Assembly: GCA_023954475.1 (NCBI GenBank)
Contig: JAMLHW010000002.1
Span: forward strand, 1 to 64,000
Length of the DNA: 64,000 bases
Reading direction: 5' to 3'
Origin: Anaerolineae bacterium
GTDB lineage: Bacteria > Chloroflexota > Anaerolineae > Promineifilales > Promineifilaceae
In this document: in pieces, positions 1,505 through 3,828 of the stretch
Position numbering within the stretch: position 1 is the first letter of the stretch
How the letters are laid out: each line of letters starts with the position of its first letter
Notes under the pieces: model-generated
Told to the model about the DNA's origin: nothing
Database searches by the model: none
The model's input: the letters and a program-made list of their open reading frames with translations, nothing else
Made by a program: the position numbers and the translations under genes

Positions 1505-2128
1505 TTATAACTGCTTGCGGTGACCGGCGTGGAGGAGAGCTTGTGCGGTGGCGTAGGTGGTAACGCGACCGCCAAAGCCACGCTGGAAGCGTTCCGCATC
1601 GGCCGCTGTGGCAAAGCAGATGGTGCTGGGAACACAGCAGAGCCGCACATCGGCGTCGATGACATAACTGGCGTCAAATGCGTTGACCATTCGGCCGAAT
1701 AGAAAATCCCGCGCCAAAGCCGCTTCGACATCGTCGAGATTACCCAACATCATCAAGCCGCAGTGGGGGCAGCAGGCGCACAATTTGCCGCGACTGCGCG
1801 AGTGGATCATCATGACCGAGCGGTCGCTGACCGGCAAATTGCACATCGCACAGGTCGCCGTCCTTGGTGCTGCCGGTTGAATCGCGTCGGTGGCAGGTAC
1901 AGCGCCACCCCGCACCTTGCGCACCAGTCCGGCAGCCGCCAGCGCGTCCAAATCGCGGTGAATGGTCATGCGCGAGACACCGAATCGCGTCACCAGCTTT
2001 TGTGTCACGACTCTTCCCTCATCTTGTACGAGCTGACCGATAGCATGCTGTCGTTCTTCGGCCGAAAACGGGTGGTTGGACTCAGATTGCTGACTGTTTG
2101 CTGGCATAAGCGTTTGCTTGTGATGCAT
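1505..2128 (-). CDS. DeoR-type HTH regulator fused to a NosL-like copper-binding domain
   Basis: Of 207 aa. Residues about 24-75 are a DeoR-type winged helix (QKLVTRFGVSRMTIHRDLDAL). Residues 93-123 hold a cysteine cluster, CAMC then CACCPHC, and residues about 139-192 resemble NosL (DFLFGRMVNAFDASYVID, then two adjacent Cys at 164-165, then ERFQRGFGGRV). NosL proteins bind Cu(I) and serve maturation of nitrous-oxide reductase copper sites. The normal sugar-phosphate sensor domain of DeoR regulators is absent. The gene is divergent from a copper-delivery operon (lipoprotein, SCO1, PCuAC) only 61 bp away. I infer a copper-responsive regulator of that operon. No strong ribosome site is visible; a second ATG at 2107 is an alternative start. 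The gene contains two TCGGCCGA copies. Confidence 0.8.
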   Translation of the reverse strand: MHHKQTLMPANSQQSESNHPFSAEERQHAIGQLVQDEGRVVTQKLVTRFGVSRMTIHRDLDALAAAGLVRKVRGGAVPATDAIQPAAPRTATCAMCNLPVSDRSVMMIHSRSRGKLCACCPHCGLMMLGNLDDVEAALARDFLFGRMVNAFDASYVIDADVRLCCVPSTICFATAADAERFQRGFGGRVTTYATAQALLHAGHRKQL

Positions 2129-2131
2129 TGC

Positions 2132-2190
2132 ACAATCGACTAAAATGATCTACAATGATACATATAACGCGATTGTAACATAATGTAACA
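2132..2190. promoter_or_regulatory. Divergent promoter region with nested repeats, candidate operator
   Basis: Between the DeoR/NosL regulator and the copper operon lie an inverted repeat, ACAATCG at 2132-2138 against CGATTGT at 2170-2176, and two pairs of direct repeats with exactly 10-bp period: ATGAT at 2145 and 2155, and TGTAACA at 2174 and 2184. The last base of the second TGTAACA is the A of the downstream ATG (2190). A one-turn period fits a dimeric regulator. Which repeat is the operator cannot be decided from sequence. No ribosome site precedes 2190, so a leaderless start is possible. Confidence 0.45.
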
Positions 2191-2612
2191 TGAAGCGCCA
2201 TGAACTGACAATTGCAATTATCATTTTTCTTTTCCTCCCCTTGATCGGGGCGGGGTGTGCCAGGAGCAGCAACCAGCACCGCAGCGATGTGGCGATCGAG
2301 TTGACTGCTCCTCTTTTTCCGCCAACTGTTGGTCGCTTCATGGTAAGCTTTCGCATTACCGATGCAGACGGCAACCCGCTGGACGGCGCAGCAGTAACAG
2401 CCAAAGGGGATATGAGTCATGCGGGGATGGCGCCGGTACTGGCTACGGCCGCCGCCGCAGGCGATGGTGTTTATGTCATCCCAGCCTTCGAGTGGACGAT
2501 GGCCGGCGACTGGAATCTGAACGTTGAAGCTGAACTGGCAGATGGTACGACCGCTACCACGCAGTTCGACATTCCGGTTGACCATGCGGCTATCTGTTCA
2601 GAATCTGATTGA
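2190..2612 (+). CDS. YtkA/FixH-like lipoprotein of the copper operon
   Basis: Of 140 aa. A signal peptide with lipobox L-I-G-A-G-C ends at Cys23, so the mature protein should be lipid-anchored on the outer face of the membrane. The body is a single beta-sandwich-like domain with GDMSHAGMAPV and a later W-x-L-x-V pattern, typical of YtkA-like/FixH-like domains; the Met/His-rich segment is suitable for copper contact. It lies upstream of SCO1 and PCuAC in the same direction, 111 bp before the SCO1 start. Role inferred from context: accessory protein in copper transfer to cytochrome c oxidase. Family match moderate, function inferred. Confidence 0.7.
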   Translation: MKRHELTIAIIIFLFLPLIGAGCARSSNQHRSDVAIELTAPLFPPTVGRFMVSFRITDADGNPLDGAAVTAKGDMSHAGMAPVLATAAAAGDGVYVIPAFEWTMAGDWNLNVEAELADGTTATTQFDIPVDHAAICSESD

Positions 2613-2723
2613 CATAGGGCGCTGCTCTGGAAAATTAGCAGACAGCACGAACACTACGCGGATTATGGCTGGTGACTTTGTGTCTTTGTGTGGGTTCTGT
2701 TCAATAGATTAACATACCTGACT

Positions 2724-3329
2724 ATGAAACGATTTGTACTGGTCTTACTTTTGCTTTGCCTGTCCTGGATAGTGATACTCACTGCGTGTAACAGCGAACC
2801 GTCGTCTGATCACACATTTGCCGGGGCGACGTACACCGAGCCAATCGAAATTCCCAATTTCACTCTGACAGGTGCTGATGGCCCGGTAAGCCTGGATGAT
2901 TTTGCGGGACAGTATGTCTTTGCCTATTTTGGCTATACGTTTTGCCCGGATGTGTGTCCGGCGACGTTGGCAGAATTGGCGCGGGTTCGCGAACAGTTGG
3001 GCGATGAGGCTGACAAGGTACAGGTGTTGATGGTGACCGTAGACCCGGAACGCGACACACCACAAAAAACGCAGGAGTACGCTTCCCATTTTGATCCGTC
3101 GTTTATCGGTTTATCGGGAACAAAGGCGGAAATCGATACAGCTGCACAGCCGTTTGGCATTTATTACGAAAAGCACGAGGGTTCGGCCGAATCGGGTTAT
3201 CTCGTCGATCATACGGCGCGGGCGTTTCTCATCGACACGGAAGGGCGGGCACGGGTCGCGTATCCGTTTGAAGCACGCGCCGAAGCGATTGTGACTGATC
3301 TGCAATACCTATTTGCGCAAGACGGGTAA
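2724..3329 (+). CDS. SCO1/SenC copper-metallochaperone lipoprotein
   Basis: Of 201 aa from the ATG at 2724; an upstream in-frame start at 2688 would add residues before the signal peptide and is less likely. The signal peptide ends in lipobox ILTAC (Cys22). The thioredoxin-like fold carries the copper ligands Cys74 and Cys78 in TFCPDVCP and His163 in VDHTARAF. All three SCO ligands are intact. Sco proteins deliver copper to, or reduce, the CuA site of cytochrome c oxidase subunit II. The PCuAC chaperone follows 43 bp downstream, the usual pairing. One TCGGCCGA copy encodes Ser-Ala-Glu. Confidence 0.9.
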   Translation: MKRFVLVLLLLCLSWIVILTACNSEPSSDHTFAGATYTEPIEIPNFTLTGADGPVSLDDFAGQYVFAYFGYTFCPDVCPATLAELARVREQLGDEADKVQVLMVTVDPERDTPQKTQEYASHFDPSFIGLSGTKAEIDTAAQPFGIYYEKHEGSAESGYLVDHTARAFLIDTEGRARVAYPFEARAEAIVTDLQYLFAQDG

Positions 3330-3372: not shown

Positions 3373-3828
3373 ATGAACTATTCAAAGTGGGTGATTTTAA
3401 TTTTGCTGGTTGTGGGATTAGTCGCGTGTAGTACGGCAACGGGTGAACTCGAAGTTACGGATGTGTGGGGTCGCAATTCTCCAGCCGCAGCCGACAACGG
3501 CGCGTTTTACATGACCATCACGAATGAATCAGGTCAAGATGACAAGTTGGTGGCAGTTTCGGCCGATGTGTGTGATGTCGTCGAGTTGCACGAAATGTAT
3601 ATGAAGGAAAACGACGTCATGGGTATGCGTCCGGTTGAGGGAGGCGCCATTGTTATTCCAGATGGGGAAACGGTTGAACTGAAAGTCGGCGGTTTGCACG
3701 TGATGTGCCTCGGCAAAACTGAGTCATTTGAACTGGGCAACGAGTATCCGTTGACGTTGACATTTGAAAATGCGGGTGACATGGCAGTTACCGCAGCCAT
3801 TTTGCAAGCGCCTCCCGTGGCGCAGTAG
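3373..3828 (+). CDS. PCu(A)C-type periplasmic copper chaperone lipoprotein
   Basis: Of 151 aa. The signal peptide ends at lipobox LVAC (Cys19). The domain (about 25-145) has the His/Met copper motif: His73 in ELHEMYM, Met83/Met85 in DVMGMRPV, and His109/Met111 in GLHVMCL. PCuAC proteins bind Cu(I) and hand it to SCO or directly to the CuA centre. A GGAGA sequence upstream serves as ribosome site. It is the last gene of the copper operon and is followed by an intrinsic terminator. Confidence 0.9.
   Translation: MNYSKWVILILLVVGLVACSTATGELEVTDVWGRNSPAAADNGAFYMTITNESGQDDKLVAVSADVCDVVELHEMYMKENDVMGMRPVEGGAIVIPDGETVELKVGGLHVMCLGKTESFELGNEYPLTLTFENAGDMAVTAAILQAPPVAQ

Follow-up and report, generated by a model that had tools for sequence, protein, structure and literature searches.

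A YcnK-like DeoR-HTH/NosL fusion protein in Chloroflexota as a candidate copper-responsive repressor of a YtkA-SCO1-PCuAC operon

Introduction

In Bacillus subtilis, the ycnKJI operon for copper uptake is controlled by a copper-responsive repressor, the DeoR-family protein YcnK (PMC10991351, PMC8424229, PMC12154828). The Bacillus YcnK gene has 573 bp and encodes 190 aa (PMC10991351, PMC8424229), and YcnJ, a target of YcnK, carries a YtkA domain (PMC12154828). Expression of the ycnKJI genes rises under copper starvation and falls when copper is in excess (PMC12154828, PMC10991351). The literature on YcnK is divided: copper has been proposed to antagonize the repressor (PMC13344008), while other papers describe it as copper-dependent. 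A precedent for the general plan is archaeal CopR, which has a TRASH domain and comes off DNA in gel shifts when copper is added (PMC7830388). The NosL protein binds Cu(I) tightly (PMC6530538), and NosL and MerB have a common fold that goes back to a duplication of TRASH-like treble clefs (PMC4999995). Regulators of copper export are well known, but few have been described that govern the supply of copper to respiratory oxidases. Our search of the literature on Chloroflexi for a regulator like the one below returned nothing relevant. Here we describe a YcnK-like gene and its divergent operon in the window, a 64,000-nucleotide stretch of DNA from an Anaerolineae bacterium.

Results

The regulator gene lies on the minus strand and encodes a protein of two domains.

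1505-2128, minus strand: HTH_DeoR-NosL fusion regulator (YcnK-like), 207 aa (Pfam, 40-sequence alignment, AlphaFold2 model, structural match to NosL)
1898-2053, minus strand: DeoR-type winged HTH, residues 26-77 (Pfam, alignment)
1523-1867, minus strand: NosL-fold domain, putative sensor, residues 88-202 (alignment, profile comparison, structural match)

HTH_DeoR (PF08220) matches the fusion protein at residues 26-77 (E 4.4e-14), and S52, M54, T55, I56, H57, and R58 of the HTH are invariant in the 40-sequence alignment. PF05573 (NosL) matches residues 146-193 with E 7.6e-6 and 26.7 bits, versus a curated cut-off of 24, and does so through the C-terminal half of the profile alone (77-124 of 131). 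Since Pfam covers only this second half of NosL, we checked the sensor domain in two further ways, by profile-profile comparison and by structure. A profile of the domain, built from the 40 sequences, gave an hhalign alignment of 114 columns to plain NosL (E 6e-13). The AlphaFold2 model of the fusion protein has a mean pLDDT of 90.4, and its residues 88-202 match the NosL crystal structure 7og7 with a Z score of 15.2 at 1.9 Å over 112 aligned residues; a Foldseek comparison of the model with 7og7 gave 2e-6. Judging from these profiles and the model, the whole 88-202 region is a complete NosL fold. The preliminary description of this DNA had proposed a DeoR-HTH/NosL fusion, and both domains are indeed present, with hhalign and the structural match upholding the C-terminal part as NosL. 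It had also held that the DeoR sugar sensor is replaced by a metal-binding module. In agreement with a replacement by a NosL-type domain, Pfam finds no DeoRC sugar-phosphate domain in the fusion protein at E up to 1, and matches of NCBIfam DeoR models are confined to its HTH. The HTH forms the N-terminus, and we found neither a signal sequence nor a lipobox in the protein. Pfam likewise gives no match to a TRASH-type domain in it; NosL itself is held to be TRASH-derived (PMC4999995).

We considered whether this could be a MerB-like mercury or organomercurial protein and not a copper regulator. The N-terminus of MerB is winged-helix-like, and a profile comparison of MerB with the fusion protein spans both domains (E 1.3e-4, probability 54%); in addition, a structural alignment pairs 109 residues of the sensor domain with MerB 3f0o (Z 9.1). 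NosL is much closer, however, by structure (Z 15.2) and by profile (E 6e-13). PF03243 (MerB) has no match in the fusion protein at E up to 1 and none in the window's own genome, and there are no mer genes among the identified neighbors. We therefore regard a mercury-related function as very improbable. A residue match of the fusion cysteines to the MerB active site was dropped, because the profile alignment is weak and runs one residue off the expected pairing.

As the preliminary description had noted, the regulator gene is divergent from a copper-delivery operon, which lies on the plus strand.

2190-2612, plus strand: YtkA-like lipoprotein, first gene of the divergent operon (Pfam YtkA, 2.3e-8)
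2688-3329, plus strand: SCO1/SenC copper chaperone (Pfam, 3.8e-45)
3373-3828, plus strand: PCu(A)C copper chaperone, written PCuAC below (Pfam, 4.8e-33)

The PCuAC gene is the only one we found in a search of the 5.1-Mb genome. The same genome has one other NosL gene, whose product is exported and carries the usual CxxCGM motif. On the other side of the regulator, the downstream neighbor on the same strand (310-1386, minus) combines Effector-associated domain 1 (EAD1) with a trypsin-like peptidase, a pairing typical of bacterial conflict systems.

Full-length HTH-NosL fusions occur in Anaerolineae, other Chloroflexota, and Desulfobacterota; in a spread sample of Chloroflexota, 10 of 400 genomes carry one. 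A PCuAC gene is present at 24 of 40 distinct fusion loci, nearly always as the immediate divergent or downstream neighbor, and PCuAC, SCO1, or YtkA occurs somewhere in the fetched stretch at 30 of the 40. An identical search of 68 ordinary DeoR loci, mostly from other phyla and with 20 Chloroflexota controls that have shorter flanks (3 kb), found PCuAC, SCO1, or YtkA at none (Fisher p about 1e-13 for PCuAC). Fusion genes elsewhere thus mostly have copper-related neighbors, as the preliminary description would predict, with about nine of the 40 loci showing no evident one, some of these at contig ends. The neighbors in Desulfobacterota differ from those in Chloroflexota yet remain copper-like: an exported plain NosL is encoded downstream of the fusion in locus L031, and a TonB receptor with TonB is divergent from it in L029, a TonB receptor being present in L034 as well. 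In L028, a PepSY_TM gene and then SCO1 lie downstream of the fusion. At loci where the fusion is followed by YtkA, a conserved membrane protein with the cysteine motif FCMSCPF or FCMNCPF is encoded next (L014, 3028-4434; L020 and L022, 7013-8404). On plasmid CP031730.1, filed under Stenotrophomonas, a 190-aa fusion has CopC/CopD genes on one side and, on the other, a gene pair for a DsbD-like protein and a cupredoxin. There (L161, 4992-7230), the HTH-NosL regulator is followed by the DsbD-like membrane protein and the cupredoxin, with a cadA-type ATPase and CopC/CopD nearby; this plasmid cluster is a mobile copper module. Like the Desulfobacterota loci, it provides a copper context of independent make-up.

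The readable Desulfobacterota matches to the sensor-domain profile are mostly exported NosL-like proteins without an HTH, so the profile alone cannot count fusions in that phylum. Exported proteins of this sort in L172, L177, and L181, some in tandem copies, have features in common with the sensor domain, and the one in L172 carries CPLCGM...CCAHCG...ACAPS. They are a possible source of the sensor domain. Elsewhere, what comes after the NosL domain is an apparent c-type haem motif (L184, 1366-2208, 281 aa) or a long C-terminal region (L183, 1357-2709, 451 aa).

The preliminary description had pointed to CAMC and CACCPHC cysteine clusters, and these lie at residues 93-96 and 117-123 of the fusion protein. 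Five cysteines of the clusters (C93, C96, C119, C120, and C123) and two further ones (C164 and C165) are conserved without exception across the 40 aligned sequences, the relatives having identities of 30-49% to the window protein. In the hhalign alignment with plain NosL, the CxxC of the CxxCGM site is paired with C93 and C96, and the Met of the PMG motif with C165. The conserved CXM methionine of NosL is lost in the alignment, where the fusion protein has L98, so its metal site would differ from that of the chaperone.

The same cysteines can be read in another way, with a structural zinc on C93-C96-C120-C123, the ancestral treble-clef set, and with redox state or another soft metal read by C119, C164, and C165. 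The invariance of all seven is compatible with such a division, and the CxxC...CxxC spacing resembles that of TRASH-like treble clefs, which are held to be ancestral to NosL/MerB (PMC4999995). Yet the neighbors are specifically copper-delivery genes, and NosL itself binds Cu(I) tightly (PMC6530538), which leaves structural zinc as a quite improbable reading. Copper is the ligand we infer.

The preliminary description had also listed repeats in the shared promoter, two direct repeats of 10-bp period and an inverted repeat. All are present, the direct repeats at 2140-2159 and 2174-2193 and the inverted repeat at 2132-2147 / 2161-2176.

2146-2160, plus strand: predicted operator arm 1, TGATC-N5-TGATA, with a 10-bp offset between its degenerate half-sites, inside direct repeat 2140-2159
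2176-2190, plus strand: predicted operator arm 2, TAACA-N5-TAACA (TGTTA-N5-TGTTA on the minus strand), inside direct repeat 2174-2193
2132-2176, no strand: imperfect inverted repeat ACAATCG...CGATTGT (2132-2147 / 2161-2176, 75% complementary)

Arm 2 ends at 2190, the position where the YtkA start codon begins. The operator of E. coli DeoR, TGTTAGAA-TTCTAACA, has the half-site TGTTA (PMC5326754). We counted half-sites, defined as TGTKA or its complement TMACA, upstream of 40 fusion genes, the window's included. These regions hold 96 half-sites versus 34 in dinucleotide shuffles, which leave in the kinship among those upstream sequences that are related (identities to the window protein, only 30-49%). 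A same-strand spacing of exactly 10 was found in 18 pairs versus 0.07 expected, and a spacing of 20 in 7 pairs, while spacings of 9 or 11 were absent from the 40 upstream regions. Mirrored pairs with starts 9, 19, 29, and 39 bases apart numbered 7, 7, 11, and 5, with about 0.05 expected for each where computed. Since this phasing is kept among distant relatives, the promoter repeats are not due to chance; on sequence grounds, they are part of a conserved predicted operator. Of the two arms in the window, the right one (2176-2190) is ideal and the left one (2146-2160) degenerate, and the mirrored starts are separated by 20, 30, and 40 bases, where most relatives have one base less. When one mismatch is allowed, a 15-base operator pattern finds one locus in each of five of eight relatives' genomes, always the fusion promoter, and has no match beyond fusion promoters in the eight. 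In the window's own genome, TGTTA-N5-TGTTA occurs 7 times versus 20 for the reversed control, so this pattern alone is not specific; among the 7 sites, only 2176-2190 lies in a copper-gene promoter. In the window, the arms overlap putative hexamers that resemble consensus -10 elements, in both divergent promoters. The half-site array of many relatives overlaps promoters of the TTGACA...TATATT type. This overlap with promoter elements favors repression.

Discussion

These data suggest that the fusion protein is a YcnK-type cytosolic copper-responsive repressor of its own gene and of the YtkA-SCO1-PCuAC operon, with derepression most likely at low copper. The comparisons establish the identity of the domains, the fold, the invariant cysteines, the recurring gene neighborhood, and the kept geometry of the operator, and they give good support to a role as copper regulator. 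Based on sequence, model, and analogy, we consider the full account probable. The protein would act as a cytosolic dimer or higher oligomer, with HTHs that bind phased TGTTA half-sites, one helical turn apart and mirrored. Once bound, it would overlap the putative -10 elements and block both divergent promoters, and both its own gene and the operon would be repressed. The NosL-like domain would serve as the copper sensor, its conserved cysteines standing in for the Cys/Met site of the chaperone, and copper on this cysteine-rich domain would set the affinity for DNA. The copper-loaded protein most likely represses, and copper scarcity would lift the repression, as it does for ycnKJI in vivo. 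The operon would then supply copper to the CuA centre of a heme-copper oxidase. Since PCuAC/SCO1-type genes deliver copper to CuA sites (PMC7558416), derepression at low copper would be an economical logic.

The logic could also be the opposite: the apo-protein would repress, Cu(I) would release it from DNA, and the chaperone operon would be copper-induced, in a CsoR/CopY-like manner. CsoR, CopY, and ArsR-type copper sensors act in this way (PMC7558416), archaeal CopR with its TRASH domain is freed by copper in gel shifts (PMC7830388), and Cu+ has been proposed to antagonize YcnK itself (PMC13344008). However, the genes controlled here supply copper and do not export it, and ycnKJI is up at copper starvation and down at excess (PMC12154828, PMC10991351). 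We think copper induction unlikely, although it is the most serious competitor of copper-dependent repression. The window gene would tie a YcnK-type sensor to CuA chaperones in a phylum, the Chloroflexota, for which accounts of copper regulation are scarce, and the predicted operator is precise and testable.

Several known systems resemble this regulator in part. E. coli DeoR and the sugar-sensing DeoR family have the HTH family and the TGTTA half-site in common with the fusion protein, but carry the DeoRC sugar-phosphate domain that it lacks. The NosL copper chaperone (PF05573) shares the complete NosL fold and the CxxC site with residues 88-202; the fusion protein differs in having no signal peptide or lipobox, in being joined to an HTH, in the loss of the CXM Met, and in its extra invariant cysteines 119, 120, 123, 164, and 165. 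Archaeal CopR/CopT (HTH plus TRASH) likewise join an HTH to a treble-clef-type metal domain and are divergent from copper genes, but they have a single TRASH domain instead of a duplicated NosL fold, and CopR is reported to be divergent from the copA exporter gene. MerB shows the same domain order, with a winged-helix-like N-terminus followed by a NosL/MerB-fold core, but is an enzyme with only weak profile similarity to the fusion protein. This order, together with the full CxxC...CxxC set, which resembles the ancestral treble-clef one, raises the idea that HTH-NosL sensors are a living intermediate from which MerB arose, a copper sensor turned enzyme; we hold this to be a doubtful speculation.

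YcnK is the closest system. Compared by description, it resembles the window protein as a copper-responsive protein of about 190 aa with a DeoR-family HTH, encoded beside copper-acquisition genes; YcnJ, its target, has a YtkA domain, and YtkA is likewise the product of the first gene in the operon divergent from the window regulator. In a control search, PF05573 matched over the cut-off in B. subtilis, in what we take to be the C-terminal domain of YcnK. Given this precedent and the NosL matches in B. subtilis, the preliminary description's proposal of a new type of copper-sensing regulator does not hold. The two regulators belong to different phyla. The partners of YcnK form a CopC-CopD importer, whereas those of the window regulator are free-standing YtkA, SCO1, and PCuAC (CuA chaperones), and its predicted operator consists of mirrored, 10-bp phased TGTTA half-sites. 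By sequence and analogy, we assign the window gene to the YcnK kind, as a member from Chloroflexota: the type itself is known, and what is new is its taxonomic spread, its link to CuA chaperones, and its unusually clear predicted operator.
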